Source: Kineococcus sp. TRM81007
GTDB lineage: Bacteria; Actinomycetota; Actinomycetes; Actinomycetales; Kineococcaceae
Assembly (NCBI RefSeq): GCF_022669155.1
Contig: NZ_JALBVB010000055.1
Location: 72,025 to 116,508 of the forward strand
DNA length: 44,484 bases
Direction of reading: 5' to 3'
A model generated the notes under the pieces. The model saw only the letters and a program-made list of their open reading frames with translations. It did no database searches and had not been told where the DNA came from. Positions 18,875 through 32,338 of the stretch are shown one piece after another. The translations under genes were made by a program, and so were the position numbers. Within the stretch, counting starts at the first letter, position 1. The number at the start of each line of letters is the position of its first letter.

Positions 18875-18988
18875 CCCGTTCCTCGCTGGAGACCGGGCCC
18901 TGCGCCCACCCGACATCGTAGGGGCGACCGGAGCCGATGGCGGCTGGAACGGGCACAGAGGGGCACGACGAAGGCCGGGCCCCTCTCT

Positions 18989-19066
18989 CGCGGTGCCGGG
19001 CCTGTGGCCTGCGGTCTTGCTGGTCGGGGTGACAGGATTTGAACCTGCGGCCTCTTCGTCCCGAAC
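18989..19066 (+). repeat. attL: direct repeat carrying the 3' end of tRNA-Pro
   Basis: These 78 bases match 32230-32307 at 76 positions, the last 59 (19008-19066) exactly. The repeat includes the T arm, acceptor stem and anticodon-arm 3' half of tRNA-Pro but not its 5' half, so this copy is not a functional tRNA gene. It marks the left junction of the integrated element. The identity extends about 33 bp beyond the tRNA 3' end, more than strictly needed to restore the gene. Confidence 0.9.
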
Positions 19067-19407: not shown

Positions 19408-20055
19408 TTACTGAACCGCCAGCTTAGCCATTACCCGAAGATTTAGAACAATTTCCTCAAACCTCGAGATGCCACCTACTGCCTGATCCAGCCATTCCAT
19501 CACTGACCTAGCGCCGTCCGCCTGCAGAATCGGGTCCGATTTGGACGCAGCAGACATGCCCTTATGTGCAATGAAGTTGCGAACACGATGCAGCGCCACC
19601 ACTGGGTCAGCTACCGACACCGAGGTAGCTGAGGACGACACTGACGCCCCAAACGCGGCCCTTATTTTGGACGCGTTTGATGGATTTAGCAGCCTCAGAG
19701 CATCTAAGGCCGCTTGCTGCAGGTGCCATTGGGGCTCGCCATACTGAAACCCAGAGATCGCAGACTTATTTTGCGCAAGATGCGTTTTTGCTGCGGAGTA
19801 GGAGGGGAAGGGTGCCGGACCGTAACTAATTCCACTGAGGCCAGTGACGGCACGTGTCGCACTTAGAAGTATAACGTTTCTCGCGAAGCGTCCCCAAGCG
19901 TCGAAAGTATGCGTTACAGCACCCTCGCGCGCGATTCGATGCGTGCCGGTTCGGGTGATCTGCCGACCAGGATAAGGTGGGATGGTAGTAAAGGTGTAGA
20001 TGACATCATCCAGCTCTACCGAGAAGCGCGAATAGATGTCTTGCAACGTCTTCAT
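19408..20055 (-). CDS. HEPN-motif protein, partner of DUF262 protein
   Basis: I do not recognise this 215-residue protein as a whole. Near its C-terminal half it has HRVRNFIAHKG, which contains the R-x4-H signature (R159, H164) of HEPN RNases within a predicted helical region, as in the MAE_28990-like proteins that often accompany DUF262 genes. The first 60 residues look beta-rich, the rest helical. Its ATG overlaps the DUF262 stop by 4 bp (ATGA), so the two proteins are made together. Codon use and GC content are far lower than in the chromosome or the AICE backbone, a sign of recent acquisition. A defence or toxin role is inference. Confidence 0.7.
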   Translation of the reverse strand: MKTLQDIYSRFSVELDDVIYTFTTIPPYPGRQITRTGTHRIAREGAVTHTFDAWGRFARNVILLSATRAVTGLSGISYGPAPFPSYSAAKTHLAQNKSAISGFQYGEPQWHLQQAALDALRLLNPSNASKIRAAFGASVSSSATSVSVADPVVALHRVRNFIAHKGMSAASKSDPILQADGARSVMEWLDQAVGGISRFEEIVLNLRVMAKLAVQ

Positions 20056-21113
20056 GGAGTGACCGCTTGAGGCCCCAGAGCTCGCAGAAAGACAGATAGC
20101 CTAACGCGGCGGCTCGCGATGCGCTGAGTCGTGCTCTTTGACGCTGACCAAAATGTCCCCCAACCCCCTTCAGGTTCATCATCCTCTAGTACGGCACTGA
20201 GCGTCTTCAAGTTGTCAACGACCGCCTTAATGTCCGATAGCGCTCCCTCCGGATAAGTGAGTTCCTTGGCCTCAAGACGTCCCAACGGGAGCCCGTGCCG
20301 CACATGAGCGACTGCCGCAAAAAGCATCAGCACGTTGGGCGCCCCCAGCATGGGGCCCCCTGCGACCTCGGGTAGCAACTCACTAGCCAGGAACTCGCAA
20401 GTCCCTTGGACGATCGACTCGACCTCATCTTTCCGAGGAAATGCGTCTTCCATGTCTTTGTAAAGTTTGTCAATACGTGTGGATCCGCCATCCGTTACGC
20501 CATTCAAGACAAACCCGTACATTTCCGCGACGAACGCAGCGTCCGCCATGCGGACTCTTTCGCGGTCACTGAGGATGCCTAGCCGCCAGAAGTTTACTAG
20601 TTTCCGAACCGACTCCACGACGGACCATTTGAAATCACTGTCGTATCTGGCGTGTCGAAGCTCGGGGCCATTGACTGGAACCGTGTAAGAATTTATTCGA
20701 GAGAAAATTTCGAGCACATCTTCATTGTTTGCGTTGATCAACTGCTCGGTTGTAAGTTTATAAGCCAAAAACTTGTCTTGATCGCCATCCTCTAAGTCGC
20801 GGTACGTTAACCCAGCCAGCTCTTGAGAACGGGAACCCAGCCGCAGCTCGCCATTTGCGAAAGCGATAATTGCCCGGAGTCGCTGCTGTCCGTCGACAAC
20901 CTCGCGAACGATCTGCATCGTGTTTCGATCGATTCGCGTTCGGAAGAGAATTTTGGGGACGGGCATCCCCCGCAAAATGCTGTCAATGAGAAAGGACTTG
21001 GCCGACTCTTTCCATACCGAACCTCGCTGGAAGTCGGGATCCAGTACCAGTTCCCTGTCTCGATGCCACTTTAGAAAATCGGCGATTGGGTAGGTCTCCG
21101 GACTGATTTGCAT
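20052..21113 (-). CDS. DUF262 (ParB/Srx-fold, GmrS-like) protein
   Basis: The 353-residue protein carries the DUF262 hallmarks: PDFQR at 26-30, VVDGQQRLRAI with the DGQQR nucleotide-hydrolysis motif at 74-78, and FSRIN at 137-141. DUF262 proteins such as GmrS, BrxU and SspE use NTP hydrolysis to control a nuclease in anti-phage defence. Here no HNH/DUF1524 nuclease domain is visible after it, so the effector could be the overlapping HEPN protein. I chose ATG 21113 because GGAGG lies five bases upstream; an ATG at 21125 is in frame but overlaps that site. It is AT-rich relative to the window. The IS lies about 100 bp upstream of its start. Confidence 0.85.
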   Translation of the reverse strand: MQISPETYPIADFLKWHRDRELVLDPDFQRGSVWKESAKSFLIDSILRGMPVPKILFRTRIDRNTMQIVREVVDGQQRLRAIIAFANGELRLGSRSQELAGLTYRDLEDGDQDKFLAYKLTTEQLINANNEDVLEIFSRINSYTVPVNGPELRHARYDSDFKWSVVESVRKLVNFWRLGILSDRERVRMADAAFVAEMYGFVLNGVTDGGSTRIDKLYKDMEDAFPRKDEVESIVQGTCEFLASELLPEVAGGPMLGAPNVLMLFAAVAHVRHGLPLGRLEAKELTYPEGALSDIKAVVDNLKTLSAVLEDDEPEGGWGTFWSASKSTTQRIASRRVRLSVFLRALGPQAVTP

Positions 21114-21204
21114 GTCAACCTCCATTATTGTCGTTGTGTTACCGACGCTAGCACTGAGCGGTCCGTCAGGGAGCGTGCTCGTGACTCTTCGTGTCGCTCC
21201 ACGC

Positions 21205-21214
21205 CTAACGCGCA
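21205..21214. repeat. Left target-site duplication of the IS
   Basis: The 10 bases CTAACGCGCA directly abut the left inverted repeat and recur exactly after the right one at 22601-22610, so the IS moved here by transposition. Confidence 0.92.
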
Positions 21215-22600
21215 CAGGGGGTCGGCGTTCTCGATGAGAGCCGCGTTGTCCAGCGCGACACGCCGGTGAAGTAGACGCAAGGACGGGCACGGCCCCGTCA
21301 GTGATCATGGAGGTTCTCTACGCCTGATCACGAGTCACCGAGGAACCATGCCCGCCCCTGCAGTATCCCCGATCACCCCGCTCCTGTCTGCCCTGCACGA
21401 CCTCCAGGACCAACTTGGGAACCAACTCGAGCCCCTGCGCGAGCAGCTCCAGACCGCCCCGGCCACCGTGGCGTCGACGCTGATGAGCATCCTGCGCACC
21501 GTCGCCGACCCCCGGTCCCGATCCGGACGACGCCACCACCTGCCCGGCATCCTCGCCCTGGCGATCTGCGCCGTCCTGGCCGGCACCCGGAACTACACCC
21601 AGATCCACGCCTGGACCCGCGACATCGACGACACCACCCGCGCAGCTCTCGAACTCACCACCGTCCTGCCCAGTGAAACCACCATCCGCAAGACCCTGCA
21701 ACGACTCGATGCCGACACCCTCGACCTCACCCTCGGCGCCTGGATCCAGTCCCGACTGAACGCCACCACCATCCCGGGACACCGCCGCGTCATCGCCGTC
21801 GACGGCAAAGCCGTCCGCGGATCAGCCACCCGGACTGCCGTCGCCAGGTTCCTGATGTCGGCGGTCGACACCACCCGCGGTGTCGTCCTGGGGCAGGTCG
21901 ACGTCGGCGCCAAGACCAACGAGATTCCACTGTTCGCAACACTTCTGGACACCCTGCAGGACACCGACCTGAACGGTGCCGTCATCACCGCCGATGCCCT
22001 GCACACCCAACGCGCCCACGCCCGCTACCTGTACGAGCACCACGGCGCCCACTACCTGTTCACCGTGAAACGGAACCAGCCCACCCTGCACGACCAGCTC
22101 GCCGCACTGCCCTGGGGCCGGATCCACCAGCAGCACGCCAGTAGCGAACGCTCACACGGGCGCCAAGAGGAACGTTTCGTCAAAGCCGTCACCATCGCCA
22201 CTGGCATCGGCTTCGACCACGCCGAACAGGCCGTCCGGATCGTCCGACGACGACGTGAAACCCCGACCTCGGCGTGGACCAGCGAGACCGTCTACGCCGT
22301 CACGTCCCTCACCTCAGCACAGGCGAACCTTGAAACCCTCGCCGGCTACCTTCGCGCGCACTGGTGCATCGAGAACCGGGTCCACTGGGTCCGCGATGTC
22401 ACCTTCGATGAGGACCGTTGCCGCATCCGCACAGGCTCTGGGCCTCAGGTCATGGCGACCCTGCGGAACCTGGCGATTACCGTCCTGCGGCTGGCTGGCC
22501 ACACGAACATCGCCGCTGCCCTGGCTCATCATGCCCGTCGTCCCTGGCGGCCACTTCAGACCCTAGCGGGAATGTGACACCGGAGAACGCCGACCCCCTG
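21215..22600 (+). mobile_element. ISAs1-family insertion sequence, complete, 1386 bp
   Basis: The terminal inverted repeats CAGGGGGTCGGCGTTCTC (21215-21232) and its exact complement (22583-22600) are 18 bp and identical. They flank a single intact DDE transposase gene and are bordered by a 10-bp target duplication. This length, IR size and duplication size fit the ISAs1 family. Identical ends and an intact gene point to a recent insertion into the AICE, upstream of the DUF262 gene, without interrupting a recognisable reading frame. Confidence 0.93.
21348..22577 (+). CDS. ISAs1-family DDE transposase
   Basis: The 409-residue transposase contains DPRSRSGRRHHLPGILALAICAVLAG near residue 50 and VIAVDGKAVRGS around 146-157, the first catalytic aspartate region and the characteristic start of the ISAs1 DDE domain. 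GAVITADALHTQ holds the second aspartate and HWCIENRVHWVRDVTFDEDRCRIRTG the last glutamate. It catalyses cut-and-paste movement of the flanking IS. The ATG has GAGGAA just upstream. Its GC content is closer to the AICE backbone than to the AT-rich genes next to it. Confidence 0.95.
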   Translation: MPAPAVSPITPLLSALHDLQDQLGNQLEPLREQLQTAPATVASTLMSILRTVADPRSRSGRRHHLPGILALAICAVLAGTRNYTQIHAWTRDIDDTTRAALELTTVLPSETTIRKTLQRLDADTLDLTLGAWIQSRLNATTIPGHRRVIAVDGKAVRGSATRTAVARFLMSAVDTTRGVVLGQVDVGAKTNEIPLFATLLDTLQDTDLNGAVITADALHTQRAHARYLYEHHGAHYLFTVKRNQPTLHDQLAALPWGRIHQQHASSERSHGRQEERFVKAVTIATGIGFDHAEQAVRIVRRRRETPTSAWTSETVYAVTSLTSAQANLETLAGYLRAHWCIENRVHWVRDVTFDEDRCRIRTGSGPQVMATLRNLAITVLRLAGHTNIAAALAHHARRPWRPLQTLAGM

Positions 22601-22941: not shown

Positions 22942-23514
22942 GTGCCTGAGCCGCCGAGCTTGCCCGAGCTAACAGTCACGTCGGCTCGTGACACAGCAGT
23001 AGTGCTACTTGGCGCCAATGAGCGCCGATGGGGCCATGTGCAGGCTGTGGCGGCGAAGGCGGTACGAGCCGCTTCTGCGTTGAAGCCAGCCGATAGAGAG
23101 CTGCTGGTAATAGCCGCGTGGCTCCACGATGTCGGGTACGCGGAGCAACTCGCGGCTACAGGCTTTCACTCGCTCGATGGCGCTCAATGGTTGCGCCAGC
23201 AGGGCCACGAACGGGTGGCGTGCCTGGTGGCGCATCACTCGTGCGCGTCCTTCGAGGCAGCCTTACGAGGACTGTCTGAGGTCATGGCGACCTACCCGGA
23301 CGAGGGCACCGCGGTACGCGACCTGCTGACCTACTGCGACATGACGACCGGCCCAGCAGGCCAGGCGATGACGCTGGATGAGCGCTTGGCGGATGTGCGC
23401 AAGCGGTACGGCACGGACGGGGTGGTGACCCGGGCCCTCCAGGCAGCCGAGGGGGAGCTGTCGCGTCAGTTGACTGCCGCTGAGCGTCTGCTGGCCGATG
23501 CTCAGCCGATGTAG
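22942..23514 (+). CDS. HD-domain metal-dependent phosphohydrolase
   Basis: The 190-residue protein has the HD-domain residues H in RRWGHVQAVA, the HD pair in AAWLHDVGYAEQL and a distal histidine/aspartate in VAHHSCASF and LLTYCDMTTG. HD hydrolases of this kind act on nucleotides or phosphorylated metabolites. Similar genes are frequent in AICEs of Streptomyces and relatives, next to a NUDIX gene as here. The 3' end overlaps the convergent NUDIX gene by 13 bp. Its GC content is intermediate. The GTG start is suggested by the leaderless -10 box. Confidence 0.85.
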   Translation: MPEPPSLPELTVTSARDTAVVLLGANERRWGHVQAVAAKAVRAASALKPADRELLVIAAWLHDVGYAEQLAATGFHSLDGAQWLRQQGHERVACLVAHHSCASFEAALRGLSEVMATYPDEGTAVRDLLTYCDMTTGPAGQAMTLDERLADVRKRYGTDGVVTRALQAAEGELSRQLTAAERLLADAQPM

Positions 23515-25337: not shown

Positions 25338-25603
25338 TGCGGACGGCACACCGGCGCCAGGCGCGGGCGGAAGGGAACACCATCGCTGGTCAGATCGGTG
25401 CGCTGCTGCGTTCCCGCCCCACCTCGCAGACGCCGTACCGGGAGCGTGCAGTGTGGTTCGAGCGCAAGGCGCAGCTGTTCGGGCGCCTGGCGGAGCACTA
25501 CGGCCAGGGCGACCCGCAGGAAGCGGCCGAGTGCCGCTACCTGGCCACCGTGGCCGCCGAGGAGGCGAGTCGGCTTCGCTCGGTCCAGGCGGTGGCTCGG
25601 TGA
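25337..25603 (+). CDS. Small AICE protein, helical, unknown function
   Basis: The 88-residue protein is basic at its N terminus and helical later (PYRERAVWFERKAQLFGRLAEHYGQGDPQEAAECRYLATVAAEEA). It resembles in pattern the small AMED_5909-type proteins found in actinomycete elements, but I would not rely on this. It is joined to both neighbours by overlapping start/stop codons (TGATG before, GTGA after), so it is almost certainly translated. Confidence 0.7.
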   Translation: MRTAHRRQARAEGNTIAGQIGALLRSRPTSQTPYRERAVWFERKAQLFGRLAEHYGQGDPQEAAECRYLATVAAEEASRLRSVQAVAR

Positions 25604-27069
25604 TCGGCGGACCGAAGGGTGTGGTGACGCGCCAGCCCACCCAGCAACGCACCACCTCCACCGACGACTGGGTGGCGGACCTGCTGCTGATGCTGCTCGA
25701 GCTGGCCTGGTGGCTGCTCAGGGGCGTCGTGCGGCTGGCGTGGCGCTTCCCCGTCCCCGTCGGCGTCGCGCTCGTCGGCTGGTGGGCCTACAGCCACGAC
25801 CACCTGCTCTCGGTCGGCATCGTGGCCGTCGTCGTGGTGGTGGCCGTGGTGACGTGGCGCCTGGCCTGGCCCGGCTCGTTCCTGTGCTGGGTCTCGCGGC
25901 CGGCGTGGCGGCGGCGCAAGCGGCGGACGATCCGGCACAGCTGGCCCGGGCTGTGCGATCGGGTCGGCCTGGCGCTGAGCGTCGTCGAGCACCGCTCCGG
26001 TGGTCGCTCGTCCTGGACGCCGGGGCTGTCCCGGCTGCGCTGGACCTCCCGTGAGCACCTGGTGCTCTCGGCGCGGGTGCGGATGGTCGCCGGGCAGACC
26101 GTCGACGACCTCGCCGCGGCGGCGGAGAACCTGGCGGCGGCGTGCGGGGCGTGGTCGTGCCGGGTACGCAAGACGTCCCCGAACACCGCGGTCATCACAT
26201 GGCTGTTCGGTGACCCGCTGGCGCACGCCGTCTCCCCGATGCCCGTGCCGGACGTCGTCGACGCCGCGGCGGTGCCGGTGGGACTGCGCGAGGACGGACA
26301 GCCCTGGCTGCTGCGCCTGGCCGCCACCCACGTCCTCATCGTCGGGGTCACCGGCGCCGGCAAGGGCTCGGTGGTGTGGTCGCTGCTCGGCGGCCTGGCC
26401 GGCGGTATCCGCGACGGGCTGGTGCAGGTGTGGGCCGTGGACGGTAAGGCTGGCATGGAGCTCGAACCCGGCCGGGCACTGTTCACCCGCTTCGCCACCA
26501 CCGTCGAGGACGGCGTGCAGCTGCTGGAGGACGCCGCCGTGCTGATGACCGACCGCGCCGCCCGGATGGCCGGTACGGCCCGCCAGCACGAGCCCTCGAC
26601 GAGCGAGCCGCTGCTGGTCGTCCTGGTCGACGAGGTGGCGCTGCTGACGGCGTACACACCGGACCGCAAGCTGCGCGACCGCGCGGAGAAGGCGATGGCC
26701 GCGCTGGCCACCCAGGGACGGGCGCCGGGTGTGGTCCTGGTGGCGGCGCTACAGGACCCGCGCAAGGAGGTCCTGGGCCTGCGCAACCTCTTCCCGACGA
26801 AGGTGGCGATGCGTCTGGACGAGAAGTCGCAGGTCGACATGGTCCTGGGCGAGGGCGCCCGCGACTCCGGGGCGCTGTGTCACCAGATCCCCGACACCAC
26901 CCCTGGTGTCGCCTACGTCAAGGTCGACGGCATTCGCGAACCGGTGCGGGTGCGTGCCTCCTACTACGACGACGCCGCCATCGAGCAACTGGCGCGGACG
27001 TACGCACCCACAGTCCGGCCGGTGTTCTCCGTCGTCGACGACCAGGCCGACGAGGAGGGAGCCGCGTGA
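25600..27069 (+). CDS. FtsK/SpoIIIE (TraB-type) DNA translocase
   Basis: The 489-residue protein has two N-terminal membrane segments (about 28-48 and 52-92), a Walker A motif GVTGAGKGS at 249-257 and a Walker B segment LLVVLVDEVALL at 338-349. Later come QGRAPGVVLVAALQDPRKEVLGLRNLFPTKVAMRL, typical of FtsK-like motors. In AICEs and Streptomyces plasmids this single protein moves double-stranded DNA into the recipient during conjugation. The GTG start overlaps the previous stop (GTGA), and its own stop overlaps the rep start the same way. Confidence 0.92.
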   Translation: MIGGPKGVVTRQPTQQRTTSTDDWVADLLLMLLELAWWLLRGVVRLAWRFPVPVGVALVGWWAYSHDHLLSVGIVAVVVVVAVVTWRLAWPGSFLCWVSRPAWRRRKRRTIRHSWPGLCDRVGLALSVVEHRSGGRSSWTPGLSRLRWTSREHLVLSARVRMVAGQTVDDLAAAAENLAAACGAWSCRVRKTSPNTAVITWLFGDPLAHAVSPMPVPDVVDAAAVPVGLREDGQPWLLRLAATHVLIVGVTGAGKGSVVWSLLGGLAGGIRDGLVQVWAVDGKAGMELEPGRALFTRFATTVEDGVQLLEDAAVLMTDRAARMAGTARQHEPSTSEPLLVVLVDEVALLTAYTPDRKLRDRAEKAMAALATQGRAPGVVLVAALQDPRKEVLGLRNLFPTKVAMRLDEKSQVDMVLGEGARDSGALCHQIPDTTPGVAYVKVDGIREPVRVRASYYDDAAIEQLARTYAPTVRPVFSVVDDQADEEGAA

Positions 27070-28568
27070 ACGCCACGACCGCTCCTGCACCGGCTGCCGT
27101 ACCGGCTGCTGTGGAGGTTGAGGTCGGTCAGCGCTTGCTGTCCCCGACGTTCGAGCGGTGGGCCGAGCAGGCCGCGAACTGCGGGCACTGTGCCCGACCG
27201 ATCCGGCTGCGCGGGCAGGCCACCACCTTCGACCGGGCCACCGGTGAGGTTCTCTCGACCTACGACTCGGCCACCGAACCGGACGGAGTGCTGTACGCGC
27301 GCTGCGGCAACCGGCGGGCGAGCGTGTGCCCTTCGTGCAGCCACGAGTACAAGGGCGACATGTGGCACCTGCTCGCCGCCGGGGCCGCCGGCGGGATGAA
27401 GGGCGTACCGGAATCGGTGGCCACCCACCCGCTGGTGTTCGCGACGTTGACCGCTCCCTCCTTCGGGGCCGTGCACGGTCTGCGGCGCCGGTCGGGACGA
27501 GCAACGATGTGCCGGCCGCGTGCGACCTCCGCGAGGTGTGAGCACGGCCGGTCACTGGGCTGCCGCACGGTGCACGCCGAGGGTGACCGACGGCTGGGAC
27601 AGCCGCTGTGCCCGCAGTGCTACGACTACACCGGGCACGTGGTGTGGCAGTGGTGGGCGCCGGAGCTGTGGCGCCGCTTCACCATCGCGCTGCGCCGGGT
27701 ACTGGCCGCCTCCCTGGCGTTGACGCACAAGGAGGCGCACGCCCTGGTACGGGTCTCGTTCGCCAAGGTGGCGGAGTTCCAACGCCGCGGCGTGGTGCAC
27801 TTCCACGCCCTCATCCGCCTCGACGGGCCACCGGTGAATTCGGAGGAGTTCCCGGCTCCACTCATCGACGTGAGCGCCCAGCGGTTGTGCGAGCTGGTGC
27901 ACATCGCCGCCGCGCGGGTCTGGTTCGACGCTCCCGCCACCGCACCGGGCGAGCCGCTGCGCCGACTGCGTTTCGGAGCCCAGGTCGATGCTCGCGCCGT
28001 CACCGCGGACGCCACCCGGGATACCGGCCGCGCCAACGACCCGGACGACGGCCTGCACCCGGAGACGGTCGCGGCCTACATCGCCAAGTACGCCACCAAG
28101 GCCTGCGACGACTTCGGACTGCCGCCCCGGCTCCGCGACCCCGAGGCCGCACGACGCATGGGCATCGCAGAGCACGTCTGCCGCCTGCTGGCCGAAGTGC
28201 ACCACCTGGCACGCACCGGCGGGTCGAAGTACCTGGCGCTGGCCAAGTGGGCGTCGATGATCGGCTTCCGCGGTCACTTCTCGACCAAGTCCCGCCGCTA
28301 CTCCACCACCCTCGGCCGGCTCCGCTCTGCCCGGAAGCGGTGGGCCGTCGAGCGACTGCGCGACCACCTCACCGGACCGATGCCTCCCGATGAGCGCAAT
28401 GGCATCCCAACCGAGGCCGAGGACACCACGCTTGTCGTCAGCTCATGGTCATTCGAAGGCGTCGGGTGGCTGACTGCCGGGGATGCGGCGCTGGCCGCCA
28501 CCGCCGCCGCGCAGGCCCGTGAGTGGCGGGATGACCGCGCGCGGGTACGCCGCGCCCAGCAGCAGTGA
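27066..28568 (+). CDS. RepSA-like rolling-circle replication initiator
   Basis: The 500-residue protein has N-terminal zinc-ligand pairs (CGHC at 39-42; C80, CPSC at 88-91), an HUH-type metal site HFH at 245-247 in RRGVVHFHALIRLDG, and a downstream tyrosine pair in AAYIAKYATKA (Y338, Y342), one of which would be the nicking residue. This matches initiators of pSAM2-type elements, which nick the double-strand origin after excision. It is translationally coupled to the translocase gene by a GTGA overlap. Confidence 0.88.
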   Translation: MNATTAPAPAAVPAAVEVEVGQRLLSPTFERWAEQAANCGHCARPIRLRGQATTFDRATGEVLSTYDSATEPDGVLYARCGNRRASVCPSCSHEYKGDMWHLLAAGAAGGMKGVPESVATHPLVFATLTAPSFGAVHGLRRRSGRATMCRPRATSARCEHGRSLGCRTVHAEGDRRLGQPLCPQCYDYTGHVVWQWWAPELWRRFTIALRRVLAASLALTHKEAHALVRVSFAKVAEFQRRGVVHFHALIRLDGPPVNSEEFPAPLIDVSAQRLCELVHIAAARVWFDAPATAPGEPLRRLRFGAQVDARAVTADATRDTGRANDPDDGLHPETVAAYIAKYATKACDDFGLPPRLRDPEAARRMGIAEHVCRLLAEVHHLARTGGSKYLALAKWASMIGFRGHFSTKSRRYSTTLGRLRSARKRWAVERLRDHLTGPMPPDERNGIPTEAEDTTLVVSSWSFEGVGWLTAGDAALAATAAAQAREWRDDRARVRRAQQQ

Positions 28569-30051: not shown

Positions 30052-31788
30052 TCATTCATCCATTCCACGACTCTGCATTACGCGAATCAACTGATCGGTT
30101 ACCAACGAAAAACTGTTCGTTTCCCATGCGGGTCTATTCAAGGGCAATCCCTGCTGATCAATGAAATGCTCTAGCGGCATATCCGGGGCAGCCACTCGCC
30201 ACCTGACCAACATGCTTGCGTCGGCTTGCCCGGTCTCCATAAGAGCCTCAAAAGAACGCAACTCCCGCAATGTTATGATCGCAAATGGCAGCGCGGATGG
30301 ATGTGTCAATCCAGAATTCTTACGAACCTTTTCTCGGACCTGCTGAGCTACAACCTCATTCCAGCCTAGGCCTTCATTGGGAACAACGACCAGGGGGACA
30401 ATTCGAGTTCCATCGGGAGGCGGGTATCCACAGAGTTTCTGCAAATGATGACGAATGAGGTGGACCGTAGAGTTTAACTGCTTCGCCTTGCGGTCTGTTA
30501 AAACCGCATCAAGCTCGCGCTCCAATGATTCACGCCCGCCGCTAGCATTAACAACGTCAGCCGCAATTCGACGAGAGGTGCATTCGATGAGAAGCCATAC
30601 ATCGCCACAGTCGACGGCGAAATCGCAAACTTTGGGCTTCTGACCCGAACGACCCATCCAGGCCTTCTGCATGTTCACTTCATCAAAAACTCTCTTAGAG
30701 AGCTGGCCGGAGTTGAACATTCGAGACAGCGTCTGGCCGACGCTATTCTCAAAAACCGCCTCGGCCGCAGCTCGAAACGCCACCACTTGGCGACTGCTAG
30801 GTCCTAAAGATTGAGCTACATCTAAGCTTGGAGGAACCCCAAGTGCCCGTTCAACCATAAAACCGAGACGCAGCACGAGGTACTCCCCCGTTTCCAGCCG
30901 GACGATTGGGTAGCGCCGAAAGCTATTGAATGACCAGCTGGGAATAGTGCATTCATTTCTCTCCGCTGCAATCTCCGCCGCTAGGCCGATGGAATCAATT
31001 GAGGTAATTTCGAGGAACCGCCTGATCGCGTTCTCATCAACGCCTAGCTTCTCAAAAAACTCGAAGGGGAATCGCGTGTAATTGTTGATCTCAGCTTGTG
31101 TCCACAGATGTAGAGCGATCGAAATAAGGTCATCGAAGGTTACGCCCGTAGCGAGTTGATAGAGGTCCGCAGGGGTGGAAGGCAGTTGATTTCGAATCTT
31201 TTTCGGCAGCTTATCTGGCCATTCACGTCGCCAGAAGAAGTCGGCTTCTGTAATTAGATGTGCAAGTTGCGGGCTCTTATTGAAGTGTTGGTTCGCGACA
31301 AGTTCGGATGCTAATTCTTCGTCGTAACCCCCCCAGACCAGTCCTGAAGGTCGAGGACGATGACTCGGCTCTTCCTGGCCGATGCTTAAAAGGTTTCGAA
31401 GGATGGCATCTAAGCCAAATAGGTCATTTCTAGGGGCTCCGGGAGCACAGCCTTCAAGGGCTTCTGCGGCGGCGAGCAGAATAACTTGCGGCACCAGCAG
31501 AGGGCGACGCTCGGAAACTCTTACAAGCAATCGAGATCTCAAAGGCTCAGTGGCAGCCGCGGCCCAACCGCGCTCATTAGCAAGGCGGTCGGCCGAAGTG
31601 AGCCAAGTCTTATCCACGTCGCGCAGCATCGCGGACAAGATTGTTAGAACGTGGTCTCTCGGGAGTGACCGCCAAGCTTGGTTGCGAGCTTCACGATCCA
31701 TGGCTTGTATCAGAACATCGTCAGCCGTCAGATACACCTTCGCGCGACCAGCGAAGTCCCCGTACTGTCCCCGATAGCGATCCGGCAC
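30052..31788 (-). CDS. Orphan 578-residue protein with a nuclease-like motif
   Basis: I do not recognise a named family. The protein is largely helical up to about residue 290. From 340 to 410 there is an E...D...ExT arrangement (E347 in FENSVGQTL, D389 in KVCDFAVD, E402 in WLLIECTS) that resembles the PD-(D/E)xK nuclease fold with Thr in place of the usual Lys. A basic helical stretch and a beta-rich part (RIVPLVVVPN, PFAIITLREL) follow. There is no signal peptide. It is a single AT-rich gene at the element's right end, convergent with int. The GTG start lacks a clear ribosome site. A role in defence or DNA processing is only inference. Confidence 0.75.
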   Translation of the reverse strand: MPDRYRGQYGDFAGRAKVYLTADDVLIQAMDREARNQAWRSLPRDHVLTILSAMLRDVDKTWLTSADRLANERGWAAAATEPLRSRLLVRVSERRPLLVPQVILLAAAEALEGCAPGAPRNDLFGLDAILRNLLSIGQEEPSHRPRPSGLVWGGYDEELASELVANQHFNKSPQLAHLITEADFFWRREWPDKLPKKIRNQLPSTPADLYQLATGVTFDDLISIALHLWTQAEINNYTRFPFEFFEKLGVDENAIRRFLEITSIDSIGLAAEIAAERNECTIPSWSFNSFRRYPIVRLETGEYLVLRLGFMVERALGVPPSLDVAQSLGPSSRQVVAFRAAAEAVFENSVGQTLSRMFNSGQLSKRVFDEVNMQKAWMGRSGQKPKVCDFAVDCGDVWLLIECTSRRIAADVVNASGGRESLERELDAVLTDRKAKQLNSTVHLIRHHLQKLCGYPPPDGTRIVPLVVVPNEGLGWNEVVAQQVREKVRKNSGLTHPSALPFAIITLRELRSFEALMETGQADASMLVRWRVAAPDMPLEHFIDQQGLPLNRPAWETNSFSLVTDQLIRVMQSRGMDE

Positions 31789-32212
31789 ACACCGTTCTTA
31801 CCAGATCGAACAAGATTAGGCATCAACGGCTCAAGCTGCCAGCAGACGGCACCCCTAGTTGCTCGCGTATCGGCACCTGCATCGGGTCACGACCGACCTA
31901 GGCCAGATTCCGGGCATCCCACTACAGCAGGTCTGATGCGCTGGCATGGGTTGTACTCGCTTTCCATAGAGCCCACCGTTGGGCTTGGTAGTGACAGCAG
32001 ACTTAGCGGACGACCACCCACCCATTGTCGACTTCATGGACAGGACAGTGCCAACCGGTGATCTGTTGAGATCACAGACCAGCAAGGTCACTGGCGAGCC
32101 GGTCGGATCTGCCGATGCCACTGCACCACCTTGGCTCACTGACAGGTAGCCACAGCTCAGAGGGGACGCCGTCCCGGGTGACAGTCACGCAGTCAGTCAC
32201 GCACAACGTCAC
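31789..32212. other. Non-coding right arm of the element
   Basis: I see no credible gene. GTCACGCA occurs twice in direct repeat, 12 bp apart (32184-32191 and 32196-32203). The first extends to GTCACGCAGT as in the left arm, which suggests integrase/excisionase arm sites (inference). Confidence 0.4.
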
Positions 32213-32229
32213 AGGCCCGGCCCCGCTGA

Positions 32230-32244
<15 letters not shown>
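32213..32244 (-). terminator. tRNA-Pro terminator supplied by the element
   Basis: A 9-bp stem (32213-32221 with 32236-32244) encloses a further 4-bp stem (32223-32226 with 32231-32234) just downstream of the tRNA 3' end. It starts inside element DNA and its right arm lies in the att repeat, so integration restores both the tRNA and a terminator. Confidence 0.65.

Positions 32245-32338
<94 letters not shown>

Follow-up and report, generated by a model that had tools for sequence, protein, structure and literature searches.

Profile comparison makes P0001, a protein of 578 residues encoded in the window (the whole stretch of Kineococcus sp. TRM81007 DNA that was analysed, 44,484 nucleotides), a distant relative of the GapS1 proteins, which form a named anti-phage family (NCBIfam NF047931). 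Our preferred reading, to which we attach a probability of roughly 0.68, is that P0001 is AICE cargo and acts on its own as an anti-phage effector of the GapS1 type, and that it contains a nuclease which would be released by infection and in which a lysine would have been relocated. How the protein folds, its nuclease activity and substrate, what triggers it, its defence phenotype and the part played by the candidate residue K434 are inferred. An unannotated AICE cargo gene and the proteins of 23 plasmid records are now placed beside a named anti-phage family, and precise candidate residues can be given for them, among them a lysine that has apparently been relocated within one protein lineage.

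The gene and the element that carries it

The frame of P0001 opens with a GTG codon and occupies 578 codons. The sequence-only reading had its limits (30052-31788) and its length right; the strand is minus. The real start may be codon 18, likewise GTG, at which the closest relative begins. A chance open reading frame was ruled out by 500 base shuffles of the stretch, in which the longest open frame had a mean of 124 codons and never exceeded 230. The gene has a GC content of 0.534 (GC3 also 0.534) compared with 0.75-0.77 in the window flanks, while four other genes of the element (those for the ISAs1 transposase, the TraB-type protein, RepSA and the integrase) have 67-73% GC and a GC3 of 0.82-0.89. 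The earlier description of a lone AT-rich cargo gene lying between int and attR therefore holds (GC 53% against about 75% around it).

The host element is a pSAM2-like AICE integrated in tRNA-Pro(CGG) (Table 1), an assignment supported by its RepSA protein and its FtsK/TraB-type protein. RepSA scores 376.5 bits and is hence under the NCBIfam equivalog cut-off of 700. The P0001 gene ends 78 bp from the convergent int gene and starts 417 bp inside attR. Nine congener loci that include tRNA-Pro and the right flank were compared. In three (L037, L038 and L039) no element separates the left flank from the tRNA and right flank, giving an empty site; in the other six no such left flank was found within the approximately 1.5 kb examined. 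No stretch of more than 60 bases matching the element was present in any of the nine.

Table 1. Coordinates of the P0001 gene, its predicted functional residues and the surrounding element in the window
Feature	Position	Strand	Basis or remark
GapS1-like protein P0001, 578 aa: N-terminal/middle region and PD-(D/E)xK-like nuclease core	30052..31788	-	profile and alignment comparisons
N-terminal/middle region, about residues 18-324, proposed (inferred) sensing part	30817..31737	-	half-profile homology
Predicted active site, motifs I to IV	30478..30750	-	joint alignment
E347	30748..30750	-	predicted active site
E370	30679..30681	-	predicted active site
D389	30622..30624	-	predicted active site
E402	30583..30585	-	predicted active site
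T404	30577..30579	-	predicted active site
K434	30487..30489	-	predicted active site
Q437	30478..30480	-	predicted active site
Tyrosine integrase (int) of the AICE, convergent neighbour of the P0001 gene	28801..29973	+	78 bp apart
RepSA replication initiator of the AICE	26877..28568	+	Pfam E 1e-155
FtsK/TraB-type transfer protein of the AICE	25453..27069	+	profile matches
attL	18965..19066	.	102-nt direct repeat, 91% identical to 32206-32307
attR	32206..32307	.	102-nt direct repeat, 91% identical to 18965-19066
tRNA-Pro(CGG), integration site	32262..32338	-	overlaps attR repeat
Two overlapping AT-rich genes at the opposite end of the element	19408..21308	-	GmrSD_N/DUF262 protein and 215-aa protein
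ISAs1-family transposase gene within the element	21348..22577	+	adjoins the GmrSD_N gene
HD-domain protein gene within the AICE	22942..23514	+	PF01966 E 4.5e-8

Two overlapping AT-rich genes occupy the opposite end of the element. One encodes a GmrSD_N/DUF262 protein of 418 residues (PF03235, E 2.7e-21; PADLOC NsnA, E 1.4e-33) and is followed by a gene for a 215-residue protein, for which Pfam, PADLOC, PHROG and NCBIfam gave nothing at E <= 1. The pair is probably a second defence cargo. The element also includes an ISAs1-family transposase gene and a gene for an HD-domain protein.

Relationship to GapS1

The sequence-only reading found that P0001 matched no family it knew. This stands for Pfam, PADLOC and PHROG, where nothing was obtained at E <= 1 (the PADLOC result carries no weight, since even gp49, a true GapS1, escapes PADLOC), but it does not stand for profile comparison, which relates the protein remotely to GapS1. 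The NCBIfam GapS1 model gives P0001 27.2 bits (E 1.7e-6) against a curated cut-off of 320 bits. It matches seven of the ten members of our first alignment, the best of them (E 1.9e-10) with a match that runs into the nuclease core. When ten relatives were scanned singly (E <= 10), GapS1 matches were obtained for four (L002, L004, L005 and L006), all extending into the core and reaching 40.2 bits in the best relative, and none for the other six; L008 and L010 have no match to the model at 0.01.

For comparison we used seven GapS1 references from Klebsiella (phage and plasmid), Pantoea, Erwinia, Nitrosomonas and one phage record of unknown host. They score 393-510 bits, all above the cut-off. 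They include gp49, which we identified as the GAPS1-like protein that the Phold paper names in a Klebsiella prophage record (PMC12774648). The profile-profile search that had been proposed as a check links the two sets: the profile of 19 actinobacterial proteins matches that of the seven GapS1 proteins with a probability of 96, E 4.3e-9 and a score of 80.6 over 334 columns, whereas the best of 60 column shuffles scored 27.5 and the reversed profile 18.8. The halves also match separately, N-terminal with N-terminal at E 9.5e-6 (so the part of P0001 before residue 330 is homologous on its own to the N-terminal half of GapS1) and C-terminal with C-terminal at E 1.2e-5; crossed halves give no match. 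Single-sequence comparisons speak against the link: BLAST between P0001 and one true GapS1 gave no match, and that GapS1 sequence against the ten-row profile reached a probability of only 7.9 (E 0.0044).

A joint alignment of 26 rows was built from P0001, 18 actinobacterial relatives (15 of them from plasmids) and the seven GapS1 proteins. Of the 23 plasmid records with a relative, 17 were retrieved and 15 are in the alignment. L010 (one of the 23, with a shortened frame), L024 (stop in frame) and L026 (partial) were left out, as were L021 (the protein accession of L015) and L022 (the gene of L014); a shortened member of 435 residues, L019, was retained. In the resulting tree a fully supported branch (100/100) separates the actinobacterial set from GapS1, P0001 is paired with a Pseudarthrobacter protein at 100/100, and one GapS1 row (L032) lies on a very long branch.

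The actinobacterial set is collinear with GapS1 in both the N-terminal/middle and nuclease halves, has in common with it the motif I Glu, motif II Asp, motif III Asp/Glu and a helix Gln, and is likewise found on mobile elements. It differs in that P0001 falls far under the family cut-off, in having Thr or Asn in place of the motif III Lys together with an invariant Lys in the helix, in the residue ahead of the motif II Asp, which is Cys in place of the Val of the seven references, and in its hosts, which are Actinomycetota. Neither its score nor its motif III would make P0001 a member of the curated family.

Predicted active site and fold

Only four positions are identical in all 26 rows: P294, E347, D389 and Q437, the last three being predicted nuclease residues. 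Position 402 is Asp or Glu in every row and position 370 is Glu in 25, so that the motif I Glu, motif II Asp and motif III Asp/Glu of the PD-(D/E)xK superfamily are conserved throughout. The pattern first noticed, E347...D389...E402-x-T404, is present as read, and the nuclease-like core proposed from it is supported by these residues. The earlier remark that Thr occupies the Lys position was also correct: position 404 is Lys in all seven GapS1 proteins and Thr (14) or Asn (5) in the 19 actinobacterial rows. Conversely, position 434 is Lys in all 19 actinobacterial rows and Thr, Ala or Gly in the seven GapS1 proteins.

With no catalytic Lys in motif III, the invariant K434 is the candidate; it lies three residues before Q437, in a predicted helix that follows the motif III strand. 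E347, E370, D389, K434 and Q437 are all invariant in the 19 actinobacterial rows, and K434 may compensate for the lost motif III Lys. Five of the seven GapS1 proteins also carry a Lys in the helix, four positions ahead of the Gln, so that K434 may be an older lysine that moved by one position rather than a new residue. As the swap separates the two groups on a single branch, it counts as one event and not as repeated evidence.

In DUF506, DUF790 and DUF1626, according to a 2007 superfamily survey, the lysine has migrated out of motif III into the helix of motif IV, with Thr often remaining at motif III in DUF1626 (PMC1913061). P0001 resembles these families in having lost the motif III Lys and in having a basic residue in the motif IV helix, but no sequence relation to them was found (no Pfam match at E <= 1). 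A second point of comparison is Shedu SduA (DUF4263), a single-gene nuclease-type defence with a canonical motif III Lys. The proposal for P0001 is of the same kind; however, P0001 has no PADLOC SduA match and lacks that Lys.

The AlphaFold2 models, made from an alignment of P0001, L014 and L034 only, reach a mean pLDDT of 40 over the full length and of 52 over residues 325-525. Both low-confidence models show the order helix (E347)-strand-strand (at D389)-strand (E402)-helix (K434, Q437)-strand and differ at residues 405-414. The comparison with known folds that had been called for was mixed: at these pLDDT values the order agrees in outline with a restriction-endonuclease-like core, but Foldseek returned nothing at E <= 0.001. 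VIA matches were weak and of several kinds (KICSTOR, the best, Z 5.5; influenza C and B polymerase chains, Z 4.7; the restriction-endonuclease-like 3ijm, Z 3.6). Searches of the PDB by sequence gave no match with P0001 or with the GapS1 profile, and a single chance-level match (E 0.75) with the 19-row profile. Because the models are poor and the fold searches gave no significant match, the nuclease fold is proposed on sequence only.

Proposed function, distribution and genomic surroundings

The founding paper of GapS1 (also written GAPS1) is reportedly Mahata et al. 2024. The K. pneumoniae protein is described as protective against many phages in a conference report (PMC12908700), and the GAPS1 passages of that report and of the Phold paper do not link GAPS1 with actinobacteria. 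Given its homology to an anti-phage family and its cargo position, P0001 is likely to be a single-gene defence. In the mechanism that we propose, the N-terminal/middle region would sense infection and free the C-terminal PD-(D/E)xK-type nuclease, which would cut nucleic acid, most simply DNA, and so halt phage replication and possibly the cell too. The metal would be bound by E347 of motif I, near which E370 lies, and by D389 and E402. The water-activating Lys of the D/E-x-K strand of GapS1 would be replaced by T404, and K434 in the next helix, one turn before Q437, would take over its role.

Several other readings were weighed; the likelihoods that we give them overlap with that of the anti-phage reading and do not sum to one. 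The best placed, although unlikely, is that the core cuts RNA or tRNA as an abortive effector and that the lysine moved along with a change of substrate. The motif III Thr/Asn and helix Lys are indeed an unusual active-site make-up, and some enzymes of the PD-(D/E)xK fold act on RNA, but nothing in our data points positively to RNA and most of the superfamily cuts DNA.

Nearly as well placed, and also unlikely, is the reading in which the same nuclease is aimed mainly at competing plasmids or incoming AICEs and not at phages. This draws on the distribution of the relatives, which are found mostly on actinobacterial plasmids. With P0001 as query, tblastn matched 21 of 72,556 plasmid records; with the relative L005 it matched 23, all from Actinomycetota genera (Rhodococcus 15, Mycobacterium 4, Mycolicibacterium 2, Gordonia 1 and Pseudarthrobacter 1), and 15 of the 23 are typed as conjugative or mobilizable. 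A search of 50,697 phage records with P0001 gave no relative at E <= 0.01. Against exclusion of other elements, the one named function among the relatives is an anti-phage one (NF047931) and true GapS1 genes also occur in phage records; the two roles are, moreover, compatible with each other.

Where the plasmid genes bear an annotation, it is 'hypothetical protein' only. The closest relative, on the Pseudarthrobacter plasmid, has 34% identity with P0001 over 96% of its length and adjoins a type III restriction-modification pair. As for the suggestion that homologues might sit in other AICEs, they sit mostly on actinobacterial plasmids, and none of those retrieved was noticed in another AICE in the 3-8 kb read around it.

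In the genomes searched, relatives are rare. Among 198 genomes the only match to P0001 was its own. Query A1 in 396 Actinomycetota genomes found the genome of P0001 and one match of 45 columns (E 3.2e-4) with an internal stop, which was dismissed. Pattern scans, which reach few relatives, gave none with P0001 in the genome contig collection and none with A1, L005, P0001 or A7 in the viral contig collection. One relative, L014, came from the genome contig collection with query A3, and in its genus five of 37 genomes have a relative. With gp49 the viral collection yielded one locus, L034, a copy of gp49 itself. The GapS1 model found nothing in 198 Actinomycetota genomes, a result that is uninformative because it also detected none of 14 controls.

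A third reading is improbable: the actinobacterial branch would have lost its catalytic activity, the missing Lys being a sign of decay, and would retain only nucleic-acid binding. The canonical Lys is absent from all 19 proteins, but E347, E370, D389, K434 and Q437 are invariant in them despite an identity to P0001 that falls to 19%, which would not be expected of decay. Very improbable is a housekeeping or structural role for P0001 within the element, its nuclease-like pattern being due to chance: the lack of a confident fold would allow it, but the patchy distribution, foreign composition and GapS1 homology over 334 columns argue against it.

Extending the anti-phage reading beyond P0001, we would give somewhat less than even odds to actinobacterial plasmids and at least one AICE carrying a GapS1-related clade of single-gene immune nucleases, whose lysine has moved from strand to helix and whose substrate or trigger has possibly changed.

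The surroundings of the relatives were scanned with PADLOC using ten proteins, nine hand-picked neighbours from seven of the 15 annotated plasmid loci and gp49. At six of the 15 loci a neighbour scored better than E 1e-8: a type III methyltransferase at L002 (helicase partner, E 2e-8), a BrxP-like protein at L004, SduA and an Mrr-like enzyme at L007, a DrmD-like helicase at L008, and SIR2 proteins at L010 and L019. The PIN protein near L005 reached only E 3e-4. One SduA gene lies near the Mycobacterium gordonae relative. As there is no background rate, the presence of defence genes near the relatives is no more than suggestive.

About 40 bp separate the L014 gene (Rhodococcus AW25M09) from a tyrosine recombinase gene that it faces, just as the P0001 gene faces int. 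Just upstream of it are an HTH_17 gene and a PIN_3 gene (L014:6452-7642), and the three may form a unit. A PIN_8 protein is encoded downstream of the Rhodococcus qingshengii relative (L005:7827-9224); upstream, on the other strand, is a DEAD/DEAH helicase gene of very large size. Among the GapS1 loci, the gene preceding GapS1 in L029 has no Pfam match, and in two Klebsiella phages (L027 and L028) the GapS1 gene is directly behind int. The L027 prophage also encodes a weak GapS4b-like protein (L027:26579-27658; 25 bits, cut-off 300).
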